A stretch of 45,792 nucleotides of DNA, taken from contig JAHHGS010000086.1 in the NCBI GenBank assembly GCA_019359715.1, forward strand, positions 1-45,792. The letters run 5' to 3'. The notes beneath the pieces are model-generated. The model was not told where the DNA came from. It saw only the letters and a program-made list of their open reading frames with translations, and ran no database searches. This DNA is from Aphanocapsa sp. GSE-SYN-MK-11-07L. GTDB taxonomy: Bacteria > Cyanobacteriota > Cyanobacteriia > Thermosynechococcales > Thermosynechococcaceae. Each line of letters opens with the position of its first letter. Position 1 is the stretch's first letter. Position numbers and translations under genes: made by a program. Below are positions 32,889 through 45,705 of the stretch, piece by piece.

Positions 32889-35330
32889 TCAGGACATGGC
32901 GTGAATTGCAGCTAGGGCAGCAGGAGCTGCCAAATTGCTTGGCGGTTGGAGATCCAGATCTTCCTCTCGCCGAAAAGCATCAACTTGAATTGCATCAGTG
33001 CTTGCCAATTCAGCAGCGTGCAGCAACTCAAGGTCTGGTTTTGAAATAATTCCGGCTACCAAGGCCGCTTCGACCAGTTGCTCAGGCTTGCCCGCTGGCA
33101 GTTGTCCGGCTCGGCTGGCGGACTTGATTTTTTTGCGGATCGCTTCGGCTTGATCACAGAGACGACAAGCTTGTTCTAGCCGCCCCAGCGCTTGATCAGG
33201 ATCAGTAGGAATGTAGATACCCGCCGTGAGACGATCGCGATCGCTACCCGGCGTTTGCAGGCGGCGGGCAATTTGGCTACCCACGTGATCCGCAGGCAGG
33301 CTGCCAATTGGATTGAGTCGCCACCAGCCGAGGAGGGGAAGGCGGGCGATCGCGGGTAGAGGCAAATTGCTCAAAATGCCCTCAAACCCCTGTTGAATTT
33401 GGGACAGGCTATATTGCACCCCCCAGTGGACAAAAGCCAGATCCTCAGGGTTACGCCCTTCTGCCTCAAAGCGGCGCAGCGTTGCTGTGGCCAGATACAG
33501 CCAAGAAAGAATGTCGGCTAGCCGTCCGGTTAACTTTTCGTGGCGTTTTAACGTGCCGCCAAATCCAATCAGCACCAGATCCGTCAAGAGGGCAAAGCTA
33601 GACGCCGCCCAGGCCAGTTTCTGGTAGTAGCGAGCCGTTGCCCCGGAGACAGGCGCTAGAGCCAGATAGCCCCGCGAAAGACTAAGTAACACAGTCCGGA
33701 AGCCATTCCGAATTGTAAACCCGATGTGTTGCCACAGGAGTTGATCAAAAGCAGTAACATCTTTGGTTTGCAGGGCCGAGACTTCGGCATAGAGATAGGG
33801 ATGAGCGCGGATTACACCCTGCGCAAAAATCATCATTGTCCGGGTGAGAATGTTAGAGCCTTCGACCGTAATGGGAATTGGCATCGCCGTGTAAAGATTG
33901 GCCAGCAAGTTGCGCGGCCCACGACAAATCCCGGCTCCACCCAGGATATCCATGCCGTCATTGACGATTTTGCGAGCCAACTCGGTGAACTGATATTTGG
34001 CGATCGCCGACACCACCGCTGGCTTTTCCCCCTGATCCACTGCGCCACAGGTATAAATGCGAGCCGCTTCCATTAAATAGGTTAGGCCGCCAATCCGAGC
34101 TAGGGGTTCTTCAATTCCTTCAAACCGCCCAATCGGTAGCCCAAATTGCCGTCTGACCGTGACATAGTCGCCAGTGACTCGGGCCACGAATTTTGCCACC
34201 CCTGTAGAGCTAGCCGGAAAGCTAATTCCGCGCCCGGCCGCCAGAGACTGCATCAGCATCTTCCAGCCCTGCCCCGCCTGTTCAATCCCACCGATGATTT
34301 GCGCCGCCGGAATCACGACATCTTGCCCAGCGATCGGGGAATTGTAGAACGGTACGCCCATCGGGTCATGGCGTTGGTCAATCTTCACCCCCGGTGTATC
34401 CGCTGGAATCAGGGCACAGGTAATTCCAGGTTCTTTGCCCTTGCCCAGCAAATTGTCTGGATCAGAAAGCTGGAAGGCCAGCCCAATCAGGGTGGCGATC
34501 GTGCCTAAAGTAATGTAGCGCTTACAGAAGTTCAAGCGCAAATAGAGCTGACCATCTTCCCCCCGAAAAACCGTGCCTTGGGCCGTAATGCTGGCCGCAT
34601 CCGACCCTGCCAGTGGTTCTGTTAAAGCAAAGCAGGGAATCGCCTCGCCTCGCGCCAGTCGGGGCAGATACTCGTCTTTCTGAGCGGCTGTGCCGTAGTT
34701 GAGCAGCAGTTTAGCTGGCCCCAGCGAATTCGTCACCCCCACCGTTGCCGTGTAGATAAACGAGCGAGAGGCTAACTTCGCCATCACGGTGCTATAGGCC
34801 AAATGCGAAAACCCCAATCCGCCGTACTCTAGCGGAATCATCATGCCCAGGAATCGTGCTTGCTTCAAATAGCCCCAAACCTGGGCTGGCAGATCCTTCT
34901 GGCTATAAATTTCCCAATCTGTAGCCATTGAGCAGACCTGCTCAACCGGCCCATCTAGAAAGGCTTGCAGCTCCGGTGTGACTTCAGGATAAGGTTCACT
35001 GATCAGCCGCTGGAAATTGGGTTTGCCGGCAAAGAACTCCTGCTCCACCCAAACCGTCCCTGCTGCGATCGCGGCTTGTTCCGTCTCCGAAATCGTCGGC
35101 AATAGCTTCAGCGCAGTCATTCCCCGCATAATCGGCAGTGTAAAAATCACCTGTCGCAGCAGCGGAATGTTCAAAACCACCGCTACTGTTCCCAGAAATA
35201 TCCAGCTCCAAATCGGAGCGTGAAATACCGCCAAGACAGCCGCAAAATAAAGTGACCACAGCCAAAGCGGTACGCTAATGTAGCCCAGGAGTAACAGCAC
35301 CAAGAGCAAAGCAATCAGTAAGTAAAGCAT
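32889..35330 (-). CDS. fadE: FadE-type acyl-CoA dehydrogenase
   Basis: An 813-residue protein matching proteobacterial FadE in length and plan. It has two to three N-terminal hydrophobic helices (residues 1-60). The acyl-CoA dehydrogenase core follows, with KARFLGMMIPLEYGGLGFSHLAYSTVMAKLASRS-like text, CFALTEPLAGSDAASITAQG (flavin/substrate signature) and DILGGAGICRGPRNLLA. A DUF1974-like C-terminal region completes it. It catalyses the first oxidation of fatty acyl-CoA to 2-enoyl-CoA at the membrane, passing electrons to the quinone pool via flavoproteins. It is the last gene of a four-gene operon and starts 13 bases after the thiolase. AGGA precedes the ATG. Confidence 0.93.
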   Translation of the reverse strand: MLYLLIALLLVLLLLGYISVPLWLWSLYFAAVLAVFHAPIWSWIFLGTVAVVLNIPLLRQVIFTLPIMRGMTALKLLPTISETEQAAIAAGTVWVEQEFFAGKPNFQRLISEPYPEVTPELQAFLDGPVEQVCSMATDWEIYSQKDLPAQVWGYLKQARFLGMMIPLEYGGLGFSHLAYSTVMAKLASRSFIYTATVGVTNSLGPAKLLLNYGTAAQKDEYLPRLARGEAIPCFALTEPLAGSDAASITAQGTVFRGEDGQLYLRLNFCKRYITLGTIATLIGLAFQLSDPDNLLGKGKEPGITCALIPADTPGVKIDQRHDPMGVPFYNSPIAGQDVVIPAAQIIGGIEQAGQGWKMLMQSLAAGRGISFPASSTGVAKFVARVTGDYVTVRRQFGLPIGRFEGIEEPLARIGGLTYLMEAARIYTCGAVDQGEKPAVVSAIAKYQFTELARKIVNDGMDILGGAGICRGPRNLLANLYTAMPIPITVEGSNILTRTMMIFAQGVIRAHPYLYAEVSALQTKDVTAFDQLLWQHIGFTIRNGFRTVLLSLSRGYLALAPVSGATARYYQKLAWAASSFALLTDLVLIGFGGTLKRHEKLTGRLADILSWLYLATATLRRFEAEGRNPEDLAFVHWGVQYSLSQIQQGFEGILSNLPLPAIARLPLLGWWRLNPIGSLPADHVGSQIARRLQTPGSDRDRLTAGIYIPTDPDQALGRLEQACRLCDQAEAIRKKIKSASRAGQLPAGKPEQLVEAALVAGIISKPDLELLHAAELASTDAIQVDAFRREEDLDLQPPSNLAAPAALAAIHAMS

Positions 35331-35343
35331 GATATTCCTGCCT

Positions 35344-36531
35344 TTAAACCCTTAAATTCTCAATCACCCCCGCCGCTCCCATCCCACCGCCGACGCACAT
35401 GGTAATCAAGCCATAGTGAATGCCGCGCCGTTGCATTTCGTGCAGCAGGGTGGCGGTCAGTTTAGCGCCAGTGCAGCCCAAAGGATGACCCAGGGCGATC
35501 GCGCCGCCATTGACATTGATGATTTCTTCGTTTAAGCCCAGTTTGCGAATTACGGCTAGGGATTGGGCGGCAAAAGCTTCGTTGAGTTCGATTAGGCCGA
35601 TGTCAGCCAGAGTAAGACCGACTTGATGCAGCACTTTTGGCACAGCTTCGACTGGGCCAATCCCCATAATTTCGGGTGCTACACCGGCAACAGCGAATCC
35701 CAGCAATCGCCCTAGTGGTTGAATGCCCAACTCTCTGAGCTTGCCTCCGCTAATCAAGATCGCTGCGGCTGCTCCATCCGACATTTGCGAGGAGTTACCG
35801 GCTGTCACGCTGCCGCCGAGCCGGAAGACTGCCGGTAGCTTGGCGAGGGCTTCTAGACTGGTATCCACTCGCGGGCCTTGATCAACTTGGAATACTTTAT
35901 CTACGGTTTGGAGTTGACCGTCAACATAGAGAGTTTGATGGATTGGCACCGGAATGATTTCTTCGTCAAAGCGTCCGGCTTCGCTGGCCGCGATCGCTCG
36001 CTGGTGCGATCGCAACGCAAAGGCATCCTGATCGGCACGGGAAATCTGATAGTGGTCAGCCACGTTCTCTGCCGTCAAGCCCATTGTGCAGTAGACCTGG
36101 GGAGCTTCAGCCACTAACTCTGGATTCGGAGCTAGCAGGTGTCCGCCCATCGGAATTAGGCTCATTGATTCCGCCCCACCAGCAATCATTATCTCCGCTT
36201 GCCCACTCACGATCGCTTGATGGGCGATGGCGATCGCCTGCAACCCAGAGGCGCAGAAACGATTCACCGTTGCCCCGGCCACAGAATTGGGCAGTCCGGC
36301 CCGTTGGGCGATTACCCGTCCCAAATTGAAGCCCTGCTCAGCTTCTGGAAAAGCACAGCCAAAAATAACATCATCAATCTGGGCTGGCTCCAGCACTGCT
36401 ACTTTCTGGAGAGCGGCTTGAACCGCGATCGCCCCTAAATCATCAGGACGGATGTGGCGCAGCGTACCCCGTGGTGCTTTTCCGACAGCAGTTCTGACGC
36501 TACTAATGATATAGGCAGTTGGTGTAGTCAT
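35344..36531 (-). CDS. fadA: Acetyl-CoA acyltransferase (thiolase)
   Basis: A 395-residue thiolase. The acyl-accepting cysteine is Cys93 in [13 protein letters not shown]. The other catalytic residues lie in [21 protein letters not shown] (His) and [14 protein letters not shown] (Cys). [18 protein letters not shown] and IIPVPI are also typical. It cleaves 3-ketoacyl-CoA with CoA to give acetyl-CoA in beta-oxidation. GAGG lies eight bases before ATG at 36531, so this start is preferred over the GTG three codons earlier. It starts 10 bases after the end of the bifunctional dehydrogenase gene and is clearly in the same operon. A cyanobacterial PHB-type PhaA role is less likely given its partners. 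Confidence 0.94.
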
Positions 36532-36541
36532 AGTATGCACC

Positions 36542-38944
36542 TCAATTCCTCAGTGGTTTCTTAGTTCTGAGCATGTGTGCGATTCGGTCTTGGGTTTTTG
36601 ATTGACTCAATAACGGGATAAATCTTTCCCGCTCTAGTTGCAGTAGGTAGGTTTCTGAAACGAGGGCGGGAGCAGATAAGTCTCCACCCGTCATCACGTA
36701 GGCGAGATGGTTGGCCAGGATGCGATCGTAGTCGCTGGCAAAACCGCCCTGCTGGAAGATATAGGCAGCGTGTTCTAGGATGGCTCGTCCAGGATGACCC
36801 AAAACTGTAATCGCGTTATTGTCCGGTGGCGGGGTGTAGCCTTCCCGATCTAGGCGCAGCACTTCTTGTTTAGCCACGAAGAGGCGGCGATCGCCATTCA
36901 TGACAATTTGAGTTGTGGGGGGTAAGTAGCCCCAGTCTTGAGCTTGCTGGGCACTGCTGGAGACTTTGGCCATGGCGATGGTTTCAAAGGCCCGCTGGAG
37001 GAAGGGCTGAATGTCGCCAACGGCTTCACTGGCAGCCCGTTCGACGGCCCGGCTGACCATCCGCATGATGCCGCCAGCACCGGGAATTAGCCCAACGCTC
37101 AATTCCACCAAGCCAATGTAGGTTTCGGCGGCGGCCACGACTTGTGGGCAGGCCATTACTAGTTCGGTGCCGCCGCCCAGCACTCGTCCCTGAATTGCCG
37201 CCACAATTGGGCGGGGCGCATAGTGAATTCGTTGCAGCAGGGATTGGAATTGGTCGATTAAATTAGCGATCGCCGTCAAATTGCCTGACTGGGCCAAGCC
37301 GGCCATTTCGGCGAGATTGGCTCCGCCAGAAAAGTTAGCGCTGTCATTCCCAATCACCAGCCCCCGGAATTCGCCGCTCTCAACTCGCGACAGCACTTCG
37401 GCTAATCCTTCCACCACCTTGAGGCTGAGGGTATTGCCTTTGGATCGAAACTCATAAAGAGCCACGCCTTGACCAATATCCAGTAAAGCTGCTTCTGAGT
37501 TTTGCCACAGCGTATGGTTCAGGTCGGCTTTGATCTGACTGAGGTGAATTTCGTCAGTCGGGGTAGCTAACAAGATTGGCCCCGGCTGAGAAAGCACAAC
37601 CCCAGACGTAAAACAGGCTTCAGCCGGACAAGTCTCTTGAGCTGCCTGCGGGTGCTGGGCGATCGCGGCTTGATAAAAGCCTGTTGCTCCTTCAAATCGC
37701 AGCTTCGTTACCCAAGCCGGAACGATGATACCGCTGGTTTCCATATCGGCTAGCACTTGCTCAAAGCCGAGGCTGTCCCAGAGTTCAAACGGGCCAACTT
37801 CCCAGCCAAACCCCCAGCGAATGGCGCGATCGATTTCGGCCAAATCATCGGTAACTTCAGGAATGCGACGGGCGCAGTAGCCTAATAGCGATAGAGTTGA
37901 TTCCCGGAAAAAGCTGCCAGCCCGTCCGCGATCGCGGTAAAGGGCTGGCAAACGCTGCTTTAAATCAGCAATTTTAGCGATCGACTCAATCTCACCCAGA
38001 TCAAGCGGTTTGGCTGGTTCGTACGCCAGGGTTTGGGGATTTAGAGATAGAATCTGACCACCCTGCTTGCGATAAAAGCCCTGCCCAACTTTAGCCCCCA
38101 GTCTGCCCTGAGCAACCAACTGCTTCAGCAGTTCAGGCACCTGGAACATCTGCCGACTTTCGTCTTCGGGAATGGCTGGATAGAGATGTTCGGTGACGGC
38201 AACCAGCGTATCTAGCCCGACCAGATCGGCGGTGCGGAAAGTGGCTGATTTCGGCCGCCCCACCAGCGGGCCGGTTAGGGTATCAATTTCTTCAATCCTA
38301 TATCCGGCATCGGTTACGCCCCGTAGCCCCAGTAAGGTTGCATACAAGCCGATTCGATTGGCAATGAAATTCGGGGTATCTTTGGCAACCACAATTCCTT
38401 TGCCCAAATGCAGGCGGGCAAACCATTGCAGCCGCTCCAGAACTAGCGGATCGGTATCTGGAGTAGGAATCAGTTCTAGGAGCTTTAAGTAGCGAGGTGG
38501 ATTGAAGAAGTGGGTGCCTAAAAACCGCTGCCGAAAGGAGTCAGAGCACCCTCTAGAGATCGCCTGAATTGACAAACCGCTGGTGTTAGTAGAAACGATC
38601 GCATCGGGGCCAACCACGACTTCCAGGCGGGACATCAGCGCTTGCTTGGTCGGTAAATCTTCGACTACTGCTTCAATCACCCAGTCCACCTCTTTGAGGC
38701 GGTCAAAGTGCTGCTCGAAGTTACCCAGCGTCACCCGACGCGCTGTTTTCTCAGTAAAAAAGATTGGCGGCGAGAGTTTGAGCGCTGCGTTAAAGGCTGT
38801 TTCAACCAGATCATTTTTGTTGCCAACAGGAGCTGGCAAATCTAACAGATGGACTGATAAACCAGCATTCGCTAAATGGGCGGCAATTTGGCTACCCATC
38901 ACCCCGGCACCAAGGACGGCGGCGGTTCTGAATGGTTTAAACAT
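36542..38944 (-). CDS. fadN: 3-hydroxyacyl-CoA dehydrogenase / enoyl-CoA hydratase (FadN-like)
   Basis: An 800-residue bifunctional beta-oxidation enzyme in FadN order. The dehydrogenase comes first ([27 protein letters not shown], then [21 protein letters not shown] with the catalytic His, then [12 protein letters not shown]). The crotonase domain comes last (residues about 480-700: [66 protein letters not shown]). Both crotonase glutamates (GGGTE and GLVE) are kept, so both hydratase and dehydrogenase steps should work. GGGAG precedes the ATG by eight bases. It begins 18 bases after the lipase-ligase gene and ends 10 bases before the thiolase. Confidence 0.93.
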
Positions 38945-38962: not shown

Positions 38963-41920
38963 TTAGGTCGTAAATCGGGGACTGAGCGACTGAGCAGAGA
39001 GTGGACAGGGCGGGCTTGGTGTGATCGGACAAGTGATATCAGTCAGATCAAACTCCGCCAGATCGGTAGGGGTCTGGATAATCGGTTTGGATCGGCTCTT
39101 GCTGTCAACTTCCCCATACAAAGCCGCAATTTCTGCCCGGAATCGCTGGTTGACTTGGCAGCGATCGATCTGACCTTGAGCAGTCAACAGTTGATTCGCC
39201 ACCGTCAACTCGGCATTAATTAACCGGAACCGTTTCAAAATCGCCCAGTAGGGCGAATGACAATTGGCGGCATCGACTAGCCCCTGATACCACTCGATAA
39301 CGCAAGGATGCTGAAGCAACCCTTCTGCGTCGAGGTTTAGCCCAATTTGGCGGCACCGATTGCGCAGGGCAGGCAAATCAGGAAAAATCAAAGCCGCACA
39401 GAATTTGCGCTCTGCCCCAATCACAACTACTTGGTTGACTAAAGGCGACAGTTGCAGCCGGGCTTCTAGCGGTCGGGGGGCAATATATTTTCCAGTCGAG
39501 AGTTTGAACAGGGCTTTCTTGAGTCCAGTCAGGGTCAGCCGACCGTCTGGGGTGATTTTGCCTAAATCTCCGGTCTGCCACCAGCCTGCTGGATCAACTG
39601 CCGCCTCGGTTGCGGCTGGGTTTTTGTAGTAGCCGGCTGTGATATACGGGCCGCGCAGCAGAATTTCTCCATCCGCCGCGATCGCCACTTCCATCCCCGG
39701 AATTGCCGTGCCAACACTGCCAGCCTGATTACTGCTGGGGCGATTAAAGCAAACCACCCCACTGGCTTGCGTCAAGCCATAGCCCTGTAAAATTGGCACT
39801 CCGGCCGCCGCGAAAACATTCGCTAGCTCTGTTTTTAAGCCTGCGCCACCGCTCAGCAAGTACTTCAGCCGTCCGCCAAACAGCGATCGCCATCGCCGCA
39901 GTACTAAGCGATCCGCCAGCTTGAGCAGAAGTGGATCAATGCCGCTGGCGGGCTGTCCCAATTGATAGCGCTGGGCGACGCTGACTGCCCAGTTAAAGAT
40001 CAGCCGCACCCAATTTGGCTTTAGTTTGCTGCCTCGCTCTAAAATCTGGCTGTAGATTTTCTCTAATAGCAGCGGCACGGTAGCCAAAATCGTCGGCTGA
40101 ACGGACTGGAGATGCCGCAGGACTCGATTTGGATCAGAAAAATAAATACTGTGCCCATAGTAGGTATGGCTATACAGCAGAAGGCGAGCAAACACGTGGG
40201 TGAAGGGCAAAAAAGCCAAGACGACTTCCACCGCCCCCCAGCCCAAATCTGGGATTTCGGCAAAGGTGGCTAGGGCATTGCCTGCCAGATTGGCATGGCT
40301 CAGCATCACCCCCTGAAGCTGACCGTTGGTATCTGGAATATAAATAATCGTCGCTAGGTCTTGGGGGCTGAGGGCAGCCCGGAGCGCTTGCAGCTTGCTG
40401 CTAGAAATCTCCGCTTCTCCGTTAGCTTGCAGTTCCGCCAAGGAAAAGACCTGGAGGCGATCGGGCAGGCAAATTTGGGTTTTTGGATCAGCCGCCTGGG
40501 AACACAGATGCAGATTGAGTCCAACCGCTACCGGATCTAATCCTAGTTTGTTGGCCAACTGGCTCGGATCAAACTGCTCTGCCTGCGATTGCGATCGCAA
40601 CTGCGGCCAATCCTCTGGCACCTGAGCGATCACAATCTGCTGCAACTCTGGCAGTTCTGATAGATAAGGCACAACTTGCTCCAACAAATCCAGGTTGCTG
40701 AGGATGAGGGCTTTTGCTTCGCTGTGCTGGAGCACGAAGACAATATTTTCCAACGTCTGGGTGAGGTCAATCGGTACATCGACTAACTGCGCTAACAAAC
40801 AGCTTTGATCTGCGATCGCAAAGTTCAAATCAGAGTGCATCAAAAATGCAACCCGATCGCCCTTGGTCAACCCCAAATTCAGCAGTCCTAAGGCCGCCGC
40901 TTCCACCTGCTGGCGAACCGCTTGATTCGAGAGGGCTTGCCAGCCAGTTTCTGTCCACTGATTAAAGGCGCTGGCGTTGGGAGCGCGATTACAAGCAGCA
41001 TCCAGCAATGCGGGCAGAGTTTTTCCGAATCCAATGCTTGGTGAATTCTCCAATCCACAGGCGGTGAAAGGTTGACATCGCTCTGCCCCTTCTAAATGCC
41101 GATCTAACCAAACGTCTACATCCGTGAACATTCGGTGGTAGTCCAGATCAATGTAGAGGTCGTGATAGGAGCCAGGATATTCCCGGTGTTCTTTATCTGG
41201 AAACAGCACGTGCTGAAAAAACGCCCGGCTTCCCTCCGGGGCAGTCACGCGATCGCCGCTCCCATGCATAATCAGCAGCGGAATTTGCAGATCGGCCGCA
41301 TGATCATTAATCCAATTCACCGTCGCAAAAAACTCAGTTACCAGCCGCGCACTGCCATACTCATGTCGCAGCGGGTCTTGCAGATAAGCAGCGAGGGCGA
41401 TTGGATCACGGGAAGCCAAATTTTTAGCCAGCCCAGACCTCAAGCTAAACCGAGGCATCAGCTTTGATAGCCATTTGCCCAGCTTTAGTTTGTAAGCCGG
41501 AACGCTAATTTTGCCCAAGGCCGGAGCCGTTACAATCAACCCCTGAATCTGCTTCGGCGATCGCAGCCCATAATCGAGCACAATCGTTCCGCCCAAACTG
41601 TGCCCCCAAAGAATAATCGGACAGCCCGATCGCTGGGCCCGAATCTGCTGCAAAAAAGCCGCTAAATCTGCCCGAAACTCCAGCCAACGGTTGATATGTC
41701 CCCGCTGCCCTGACGATCGCCCATGCCCGCGCAAATCCAAAGCATAAACCTCATAGCCTTGCGGCACCAGATACTCAACCACATTCTGAAACACACCACT
41801 GTGTCCACCCAGTCCGTGCACCAAAACCACGATCGCCTGGCTAGATGATTCTGGATGCCAACTCTGGAAATAGAGATGGCAATCTCCAAAGCCTTTAAAT
41901 GTGCCTTCGAGGTGTTTCAT
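38963..41920 (-). CDS. Alpha/beta-hydrolase (lysophospholipase-like) fused to acyl-CoA-ligase-like domain
   Basis: A 985-residue two-domain protein. Residues 1-285 are a monoglyceride-lipase-like hydrolase: VLVHGLGGHSGVF, LDLRGHGRSSGQRGH, nucleophile Ser108 in GHSLGG, Asp223 in HGSGDR and His253 in GSYHDLYID. Residues about 305-930 are an AMP-forming ligase of the long-chain acyl-CoA synthetase type: VMLSHANL (538-545), LPFTHVFARLLLY, YGLTQ (714-718), GWWQTGDLG (Asp785) and KLSTGKYIAPRPLE. The ATP loop normally reading TSGTTGxPKG is IPDTNGQLQG (528-537), the YGLTE glutamate is Gln718, and GRKK is GLKK. Fatty acid release and activation on one chain is the likely role, but ligase activity is uncertain. 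It heads the beta-oxidation operon. Confidence 0.88.
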   Translation of the reverse strand: MKHLEGTFKGFGDCHLYFQSWHPESSSQAIVVLVHGLGGHSGVFQNVVEYLVPQGYEVYALDLRGHGRSSGQRGHINRWLEFRADLAAFLQQIRAQRSGCPIILWGHSLGGTIVLDYGLRSPKQIQGLIVTAPALGKISVPAYKLKLGKWLSKLMPRFSLRSGLAKNLASRDPIALAAYLQDPLRHEYGSARLVTEFFATVNWINDHAADLQIPLLIMHGSGDRVTAPEGSRAFFQHVLFPDKEHREYPGSYHDLYIDLDYHRMFTDVDVWLDRHLEGAERCQPFTACGLENSPSIGFGKTLPALLDAACNRAPNASAFNQWTETGWQALSNQAVRQQVEAAALGLLNLGLTKGDRVAFLMHSDLNFAIADQSCLLAQLVDVPIDLTQTLENIVFVLQHSEAKALILSNLDLLEQVVPYLSELPELQQIVIAQVPEDWPQLRSQSQAEQFDPSQLANKLGLDPVAVGLNLHLCSQAADPKTQICLPDRLQVFSLAELQANGEAEISSSKLQALRAALSPQDLATIIYIPDTNGQLQGVMLSHANLAGNALATFAEIPDLGWGAVEVVLAFLPFTHVFARLLLYSHTYYGHSIYFSDPNRVLRHLQSVQPTILATVPLLLEKIYSQILERGSKLKPNWVRLIFNWAVSVAQRYQLGQPASGIDPLLLKLADRLVLRRWRSLFGGRLKYLLSGGAGLKTELANVFAAAGVPILQGYGLTQASGVVCFNRPSSNQAGSVGTAIPGMEVAIAADGEILLRGPYITAGYYKNPAATEAAVDPAGWWQTGDLGKITPDGRLTLTGLKKALFKLSTGKYIAPRPLEARLQLSPLVNQVVVIGAERKFCAALIFPDLPALRNRCRQIGLNLDAEGLLQHPCVIEWYQGLVDAANCHSPYWAILKRFRLINAELTVANQLLTAQGQIDRCQVNQRFRAEIAALYGEVDSKSRSKPIIQTPTDLAEFDLTDITCPITPSPPCPLSAQSLSPRFTT

Positions 41921-43674: not shown

Positions 43675-44076
43675 ATGAAATTTTTAGTGGTTAAGCATGT
43701 GATTGTAGAAGGATTGGGCATCTTAGAGCAATTTTGCCACCAAGCTGGAGTCACCGTTGATACCGTTGAGTTAGAAAAAGGCGATAAATTTCCGAATTTA
43801 GAGGGCTATGCTGCTCTCTGGGTGATGGGTGGGCCGATGAATGTGGGAGATATTGAGGCCTATCCTTGGCTAGTTGAAGAAAAAGCCCTGATCCGTCACG
43901 CCGTCAGCGATCGCAATTTGCCCTACATGGGGGTTTGCCTGGGGGCGCAACTGCTGGCTGATGCCCTAGATGGAGCCGTGGGTTTTATGCCTGCGCCTGA
44001 AGTGGGAGTGCTCCCGATTACCCTGACGCAAGCAGGCTGTAATCACCCCCTGATGCTGGGTCTGCCCCACACCTGA
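43675..44076 (+). pseudogene. Truncated class I glutamine amidotransferase
   Basis: The first ~130 residues of a GMP-synthase-like glutamine amidotransferase: ALWVMGGPMNVGDIEAYPWLVEEKALIRHAV and the nucleophile Cys88 in YMGVCLGAQLLADAL. Homologues have roughly 230-240 residues and supply the catalytic His and Glu in the second half, which is missing. The frame ends at LGLPHT, just where an IS200/IS605-type element begins. AAGGAGAG precedes the ATG at 43675. The truncated product is not expected to hydrolyse glutamine. Confidence 0.8.
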
Positions 44077-44154: not shown

Positions 44155-44559
44155 TTACCAGTGATGTGGGTCTTCAATATATTTTTGAAGGGTTTGAGCG
44201 CTAACGCTACCTGCTGTGCTAAAAAAATAGCTGTTAGTCCATAGACTAGGGAGTCTCTTAAGTTCAGGGAACTCTTCTCTTAAAAGCTTAGAGCTTCTGC
44301 CCTTAAAGGATTTTATCACTAAGTGAATTTGGTCAGTTGGAGGGATCTCGACAAACAAATGAACATGATCAGGCGCTATCTCACAGGCTCGAATAATCCA
44401 TTTCTTCTCGGTTGCTAGCACTGCCCAGATTTCATAGAGTCTATTCCTGATTTCTCCTTTCAGGACTGGCCTGCGACGCTTAGGGATGAAGACGTAGTGG
44501 ACAATTGCCAGCCCTACTGAGTGGTTGTAATGCTGATACTCAAAACTCTGCTTCCTCAT
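44155..44559 (-). CDS. tnpA: IS200/IS605 Y1 transposase TnpA
   Basis: A protein of about 134 residues, complete for the family. It begins MRKQSFEYQHYNHSVGLAIVHYVFIPKRRRPVL. The HUH motif is in APDHVHLFVEIPP, and KSFKGRSSKLLREEFPELKRLPSLWTNSYFFSTAG is highly typical. The catalytic tyrosine is in KYIEDPHHW at the C-terminus. It performs single-strand cut-and-paste transposition through a 5'-phosphotyrosine link. The frame is open to 44628, but family length and N-terminus favour Met at 44559; 44586 is an alternative. It should be active if the ends were intact. Confidence 0.9.
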   Translation of the reverse strand: MRKQSFEYQHYNHSVGLAIVHYVFIPKRRRPVLKGEIRNRLYEIWAVLATEKKWIIRACEIAPDHVHLFVEIPPTDQIHLVIKSFKGRSSKLLREEFPELKRLPSLWTNSYFFSTAGSVSAQTLQKYIEDPHHW

Positions 44560-44646
44560 AAAATCTCGATAACTTTCAACCAGCATGTTGCTATCTCTTA
44601 TTTTACTGTGCATACTGTTGATAGTCATCTATTTATCGACAAAAAT

Positions 44647-45705
44647 ATGTATGGCTGTCAACAAATCCTAATTCATCAAAGCAAGGAATATCAAGCCATT
44701 CTTGAATATCTTTGCTCTGAGTCTAATAAGGTCTATAACTGTTCTCTGTACTATGCTCGTCAAGTCTTTTTCAAGACGGGCAAGCTCACGAATCGAGCGG
44801 CCATCTGTGACGAGATGGCAAGGTCTAAGAACCGTCACTACAGGGCGATCTATGTCTCTGCTGCTCAGCAGTCCTGCAATGCAGTTGCGGAAGCACTAAA
44901 AGGGTACCGTAAGCTGATGAAGTTATGGGGGCGTGGAGAACTGCCGAACAAGCCGGAACTGCCCAACTACCGCAAGTCAGGACTGTTTACGGTTTCATAC
45001 CCTAAGCGCTGGCTGAAAATGACTGAGCAGGGGATCAGGATTCCGCTTGGCACTCTGGTCAAGGCGTGGTTTGGACTTTCTGAGATCTACCTGCCCATGC
45101 CGAAAAATCTGGACTGGGCAACGATTAAAGAAGTCCGAATCTTGCCCCGTAACGGGTGCTTCTATGCTGAGTTTGTCTATCCAATGCCGACTGTCCAAAC
45201 TCAGTTAGACCCCACTAAAGCGCTTGGAATTGACCACGGCCTGAATAACTGGCTGACCTGCGTGAGCAATATTGGAACCAGTTTCATTGTGGATGGACTG
45301 AAGCTGAAATCTCTGAACCAGGGGTACAACAAGCGAGTTGCAACGTTGAAAGAGAATCAGCCTCAAGGTTTTTGGTCGAAGCAGTTAGCCAGTCTTACTG
45401 AGAAGCGCAATCGACAGATGCGGGATGCCGTCAATAAGGCTGCTCGAATTGTCGTGAATCACTGCTTAGAAAACGCTATTGGAACAATAGTCTTTGGCTG
45501 GAATACGGGACAAAAAGATGGAGCCAATATGGGGAAGAAGACGAACCAGAAGTTTGTCCAAATCCCAACGGCTAAGCTCAAAACTCGGATTGCTCAACTT
45601 TGTGAACAGTACGGGTTGCAATTTGTAGAGAACGAAGAAGCCTATACTTCAAAAGCTTCGTTCGTATGCTTAAAGACACTAACCTCGGCAGCCCAAAGAC
45701 ACTAA
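44647..45705 (+). pseudogene. tnpB: Truncated TnpB (RNA-guided nuclease of IS605 type)
   Basis: About 340 residues of TnpB from MYGCQQILIHQSKEYQAILEYLCSESNKVYNCSLYYARQ. The RuvC-I motif is LGIDHGLNNWLTCVS, and IVFGWNTGQKDGANMGKKTNQKFVQIPTAKLK follows. Similarity ends at ENEEAYTSKASF (about 45663). The last ~14 residues are read from an unrelated repeat array. The zinc-binding/RuvC-III region with the final catalytic Asp (usually NADxNxAxNI) is missing, so the nuclease should be dead. The usual RuvC-II Glu position is FGWN here, suggesting the alternative-glutamate arrangement in which ENEE supplies the acidic residue. The upstream in-frame extension to 44521 is not used. Confidence 0.82.

Follow-up and report, generated by a model that had tools for sequence, protein, structure and literature searches.

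The window, by which we mean the whole 45,792-nucleotide stretch of Aphanocapsa DNA analysed here, carries a gene in which a lipase-like hydrolase and an acyl-CoA-synthetase-like protein are read as one chain. The question that it raises is whether such a protein releases a fatty acid and then activates it with ATP, as a sequence-only reading of the locus had proposed, or whether the ligase-like half has come to serve the lipase in some other way.

A hydrolase and a ligase-like domain in one frame

The gene forms a single open reading frame with an ATG start and zero internal stops (Table 1). The folds first assigned to the two halves were borne out by Pfam, with all three domains scoring above their cut-offs: Hydrolase_4 at residues 27-259 (237 bits against a cut-off of 27), AMP-binding at residues 307-765 (181 bits) and AMP-binding_C_3 at residues 807-937 (45 bits). 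Solved monoacylglycerol lipases matched the N-terminal half along its whole extent, at a best E of 3e-44, and Ser108, Asp223 and His253, already named as an intact triad from the sequence, fall on the triad of the solved mycobacterial and human monoacylglycerol lipases. The serine is kept in 31/31 relatives, and the aspartate and the histidine in all 29 having that column, the unfused relatives included. This half is thus predicted to be a Ser-triad hydrolase of the monoacylglycerol-lipase type, which would hydrolyse monoacylglycerol. A homologue of the lipase (~50-57% identical) is also found in Nostocales-like genomes (f30; loci L068-L089) that have neither the ligase nor the cluster, and the lipase therefore also has an independent role.

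Table 1. Positions in the window of the fused gene, its domains and motifs, and the fad genes that follow it
Feature	Position	Strand	Remarks
Fused gene, hydrolase + acyl-CoA-synthetase-like domain	38963..41920	-	985 aa; ORF and Pfam; fused orthologue in Pseudanabaena sp. lw0831
Hydrolase (monoacylglycerol-lipase-like) domain, residues 1-281	41078..41920	-	Hydrolase_4; best PDB matches are monoacylglycerol lipases
Catalytic Ser108 (GHSLGG)	41597..41599	-	Alignment to solved lipases and conservation
Catalytic Asp223	41252..41254	-	Alignment to solved lipases and conservation
Catalytic His253	41162..41164	-	Alignment to solved lipases and conservation
Linker, residues 282-300 (CQPFTACGLENSPSIGFGK)	41021..41077	-	Same length in lw0831
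Acyl-CoA-synthetase-like (ANL fold) domain, residues 301-942	39095..41020	-	AMP-binding, AMP-binding_C_3; Foldseek
Degenerate A3 P-loop YIPDTNGQLQGV	40307..40342	-	Canonical YTSGTTGxPKGV
A5 motif YGLTQ	39767..39781	-	Canonical YGLTE; Mg-binding Glu replaced by Gln
A7 motif TGD	39566..39574	-	Intact
A8 motif GLKKALFKLSTGKY	39485..39526	-	Hinge Asp-Arg replaced by Gly-Leu; CoA-side loop KK..FKLSTGKY intact
A10 motif AQGQIDR	39161..39181	-	Canonical PTLKVRR; catalytic Lys replaced by Gln
Conserved C-terminal peptide CPLSAQSLSPR	38975..39007	-	Most of the cyanobacterial clade; absent from Rhodothermota
FadB-like 3-hydroxyacyl-CoA dehydrogenase / enoyl-CoA hydratase	36542..38944	-	18 nt downstream of the fusion
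FadA-like thiolase	35344..36540	-	1 nt downstream of FadB
FadE-like acyl-CoA dehydrogenase	32889..35330	-	13 nt downstream of FadA

A second single-frame fusion was found in Pseudanabaena sp. lw0831 (L094/G051), with 60% identity to the window protein. In both fused genes the Cys of the CQ(P/F)F motif at the lipase end lies 19 codons from the Thr of the TLP motif at the ligase start, and neither a stop nor an in-frame ATG remains at the joint; the first part of the linker is similar to the C-terminal end of lipases that are not fused. That two genes had been joined in sequencing or assembly could be envisaged from their separate and adjoining positions in many relatives, but the joint is shorter than plain stop read-through would leave, and a frameshift or join near residue 290 is excluded in practice by lw0831, whose single-frame fusion agrees in linker length and codon spacing.

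Relatives were collected through a family alignment, which yielded 171 of them (a contig scan with the fusion sequence gave 0 matches), and the best 80 were kept. In this GTDB-wide scan, among the best 80 of the 171 relatives, the hydrolase gene lies 5' of the ligase gene in 25 of 58 cyanobacterial loci, at gaps of -22 to 1,499 nt, and the two are fused in one of the 58 (lw0831), the window being the second fused case. In the unfused cyanobacterial clusters the two genes are separate and mostly adjoining. The fusion is thus scarce (2 of ~60 cyanobacterial clusters examined), and the concern that it might prove to be widespread did not apply; nor did we find a third case among 386 genomes sampled from the phylum and 67 of the two orders concerned, two partly overlapping sets. 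Four further cases (G010, G012, G038 and G229) had appeared fused by a long frame, and their ORFs proved to be separate genes. A search of the open-access literature gave no description of a hydrolase-ligase fusion, or of a pseudo-acyl-CoA-synthetase, of this kind.

In a five-gene tree, the two fused genes and their nearest unfused relatives formed one supported clade of seven rows, in which the fused genes were not recovered as sisters and sisterhood was not rejected (AU p = 0.158). Lipase-ligase spacing is at its tightest in these nearest unfused relatives (42, 71, 109 and -22 nt). One fusion event behind both fused genes is the simplest reading, though not a proven one.

The AlphaFold model of the protein (mean pLDDT 87.4, pTM 0.70) has both domains well folded. 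A tunnel joining the two sites, for which structure prediction had been put forward as a check, cannot be claimed from this model because pLDDT falls below 50 in the linker (residues 285-297).

Selective loss of ATP motifs in the ligase-like half

Foldseek matched the ligase half with adenylating domains of carboxylic acid reductase (CAR), 4CL and FACS; no curated NCBIfam model for FACS scored above its cut-off (best NF038343, 229 bits vs 950). The half has the ANL fold with its N and C domains and the A7 Asp, and is without the P-loop, A5 Glu, A8 Arg and A10 Lys of a FACS. YIPDTNGQLQG stands in place of the P-loop YTSGTTGxPKG and does not match the FACS pattern (T/S)SG(T/S)TGxPKG, and A8 reads GLKK against the canonical DRKK. 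A review describes the A10 Lys as the main catalytic residue and as conserved across the acyl-CoA ligases, and gives rate losses of 100- to 2,000-fold for single substitutions at the A8 Arg or the P-loop Thr (PMC8388817). In canonical members of the superfamily the A8 motif helps to form the CoA pocket (PMC8460268), and the part of A8 tied to that pocket (KK..FKL..GKY) is the part kept invariant here. These losses (A10 Lys, A8 Arg, Mg-binding Glu and canonical P-loop) leave the proposal that a released fatty acid passes directly to ATP-dependent activation unsupported.

The loss extends to the whole clade. None of 57 cyanobacterial orthologues has the A8 Arg or the P-loop Ser, and the A8 Asp survives in just 1; 4 have retained the P-loop Thr209, 7 the A10 Lys and 37 the A5 Glu. 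A set of intact relatives (n = 22; Rhodothermota, Bacteroidota-labelled bins and one Chloroflexota) keeps all these residues in 22/22, except for the A10 Lys (21/22). TGD, YG.T and KK..FKL..GKY are kept in all 57 cyanobacterial orthologues, in which the AMP-ribose, acyl and CoA-side motifs are invariant. The mean fraction kept was 0.32 for 14 ATP-core columns; for the 160 further columns that do not vary in the intact set it was 0.81 (Mann-Whitney p = 6e-7). The p-value describes the contrast and not a discovery, the ATP-core columns having been picked from known motifs. In the same alignment no motif is missing from the Aas paralogues of other cyanobacteria, and the loss is therefore neither misalignment nor a general trait of cyanobacterial ligases. 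Nor is it the decay of a single gene, since the A8 Arg is gone in 57/57 and the A10 Lys is left in 7/57, with the same-operon orthologues of Rhodothermota intact.

In the ligase tree, all cyanobacterial cluster ligases group together (SH-aLRT 100), adjoining the intact Rhodothermota/Chloroflexota set. The basal lineages (Xenococcaceae, Symploca) are without the A8 Arg and the P-loop Ser, while the A5 Glu is present in all of them and the A10 Lys in several, and part of the clade might therefore still be active; in the clade with the fusion, the A10 Lys and the A5 Glu are lost too. Because every cyanobacterial orthologue examined is degenerate, lipase adjacency and the loss of ATP motifs are inseparable from common descent.

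Close pairs of degenerate ligases gave dN/dS values of 0.085-0.22, within or somewhat above the range that FadB, FadA and FadE gave for those pairs. These ratios indicate that the degenerate ligase is under purifying selection in the relatives and is very unlikely to be a relic. A C-terminal CPxxA(Q/R/K)SL peptide, following a variable linker, is present in most cyanobacterial members and in 0 Rhodothermota members, and among the proteins of the window genome only the fused gene matched it. It is possibly a docking tag. In its CPxxAQSLxPR form, the peptide is restricted to the cyanobacterial clade, and in many cases another CP pair stands before it.

The fad operon and the possible supply of acyl groups

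The fusion gene is the head of a tight operon-like set with FadB-, FadA- and FadE-like genes, so that dehydrogenase, hydratase/dehydrogenase and thiolase genes lie together (32889-38944) as in a fad beta-oxidation operon. The thiolase carries its Cys/His/Cys motifs, and FadB carries HFFNP and GGGTEL, with the His and the Glu. In the FadB-like protein the dehydrogenase domain precedes the hydratase domain, opposite to the order in E. coli FadB, and the best NCBIfam model for the protein is of the Staphylococcus type, below cut-off. The full set of ligase, FadB, FadA and FadE is present in 42 cyanobacterial loci and 14 of Rhodothermota type among the best 80 of the 171 relatives, and their order is conserved in the loci listed, often with the lipase upstream. 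Elsewhere in the window, an IS200/IS605-type element at 44155-45705 consists of a Y1 transposase (44155-44628, minus strand) and OrfB/TnpB (44521-45705, plus strand), and a short GATase-like ORF (43675-44076), which may be cut, lies just before it.

Cyanobacteria have been reviewed as having no complete beta-oxidation pathway (PMC7181335), and Synechocystis as encoding no beta-oxidation homologues (PMC7133116). Contrary to these reviews, a complete fadBAE-type set, which Rhodothermota have as well, is conserved in dozens of cyanobacterial genomes, and the clade-wide loss of adenylation motifs under purifying selection poses the question of how acyl-CoA arises there, if at all. No electron-transfer flavoprotein (PF01012) was matched in the window genome or in any cluster-bearing cyanobacterium tested, which says nothing on the ligase, as 3 of 4 Rhodothermota carriers with an intact ligase are without it too. 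Aas is present in nearly all other cluster-bearing genomes; in the window genome (99.5% complete), neither Aas nor another recognisable long-chain acyl-activating enzyme was found. The ligase domain of the fusion is therefore the sole candidate there, which would favour some residual activity.

The loss of ATP motifs throughout the clade, the invariance of the other motifs and the dN/dS values make it most likely that the protein is not a standard lipase-plus-ligase channel and that a pseudo-ligase, or an ATP-independent partner handling acyl groups and CoA, has been retained instead. Put more specifically, the ligase-like half is probably, if well short of certainly, a non-adenylating acyl/CoA-binding partner of the lipase, acting either as a pseudoenzyme scaffold or through an ATP-independent hand-over of acyl groups. 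A putatively active acyl-ester hydrolase would then be tethered through a flexible linker to a pseudo-acyl-CoA-synthetase, and the fusion would be produced from one operon together with the full beta-oxidation enzyme set. The hydrolase may free or accept an acyl group; the ligase-like half would no longer adenylate fatty acids with ATP, but may bind the acyl chain and/or CoA and so keep lipase-released acyl groups near the Fad enzymes. What the sequence offers as a basis is an intact triad and an intact ANL fold, ATP-phosphate motifs that are lost beside AMP-ribose, acyl-pocket and CoA-side (thioester-state A8) motifs that are kept, purifying selection in the relatives and an operon-like order of the genes. 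The sequence-only reading thus stands as regards the folds and the fusion, but the ATP-dependent activation that it implied is probably mistaken.

The sharpest sub-case of this explanation, possible but doubtful, is an ATP-independent transacylase, in which the hydrolase Ser would take up an acyl group from a glycerolipid or acyl-ACP as an acyl-enzyme and hand it on to CoA lodged in the pantetheine tunnel of the ligase-like half, so that FadE would receive acyl-CoA with no ATP spent. PhaG, an alpha/beta-hydrolase that is an ACP:CoA transacylase, is a precedent for such chemistry. The selective loss of phosphate-handling motifs beside an invariant CoA-side A8 loop is consistent with it, as is the lipase gene adjoining or being fused with the degenerate ligase and adjoining the intact Rhodothermota-type ligase in 0 of 22 loci. 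However, the lipase homologue of Nostocales occurs without any cluster, transfer from an oxygen ester to a thioester is uphill, and the two proteins are separate in most genomes. We raise as a tentative idea, one that we would not expect to hold, that cyanobacteria with the operon feed beta-oxidation through an ATP-free step from the lipase to CoA on a former acyl-CoA synthetase. If this were true, the acyl source would be membrane lipid or acyl-ACP, and in two genomes both proteins would have merged into one chain.

The first proposal, a working lipase joined to a working ATP-dependent acyl-CoA synthetase that channels the fatty acid into beta-oxidation, has in its favour the fold, the FadB/A/E context, the intact orthologue that Rhodothermota have at this operon position and a window genome in which no other FACS or Aas was found. 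It nevertheless seems unlikely, given that the protein has other residues at the A10 Lys, A8 Arg, A5 Glu and P-loop positions, on which adenylation is reported to depend (PMC8388817). It is very unlikely that the ligase has been jobless and drifting since it entered cyanobacteria and that its fusion was an accident. While the ligase has changed somewhat faster than FadB (55% vs 68% identity to lw0831) and its frame is broken at two loci (L150 and L062), the low dN/dS, the invariant non-ATP motifs, the frames intact in dozens of genomes and the clade-specific C-terminal peptide all argue against such a relic. Genes of this kind should not be annotated as long-chain acyl-CoA ligases, for example when strains are chosen for fatty-acid production.

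Comparison with known systems

OleB is haloalkane-dehalogenase-like and has an Asp nucleophile. Its fused form OleBC, of the olefin/beta-lactone pathway, is a bacterial fusion of an alpha/beta-hydrolase to an ANL-superfamily ligase, as is the window protein, and has been described mainly in Micrococcales (PMC7064751). In contrast, the window hydrolase is of the Ser-triad monoacylglycerol-lipase type, its ligase is degenerate in the ATP motifs, and its neighbours are FadB, FadA and FadE, not OleA and OleD. Identity with OleBC was rejected on the missing OleA/OleD, the Ser nucleophile and the Hydrolase_4 assignment.

The N-terminal domain shares its family and triad with the monoacylglycerol lipase of M. 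tuberculosis (PDB 6eic), which is a stand-alone enzyme, unlike the fusion. The cyanobacterial Aas (slr1609 type), which activates free fatty acids, belongs to the same superfamily as the ligase half but is only ~35% identical to it, has intact motifs, lies at another locus and was not found in the window genome. The FadD/FACS orthologue of Rhodothermota is the sister group in the tree, with the same ANL fold, the same position in the fadBAE operon and ~40-45% identity; it keeps YTSGTTGxPKG, YGLTE, DRKK and TPTLKVRR, the motifs lost from the cyanobacterial ligases, and has no lipase beside it. Among solved ANL structures, the best fold and profile match of the ligase half is the adenylation domain of carboxylic acid reductase (PDB 6oz1, 5msc), which differs from it in being a working adenylating domain that is followed by PCP and reductase domains and that keeps the aligned A10 Lys (SGIAKLLR).
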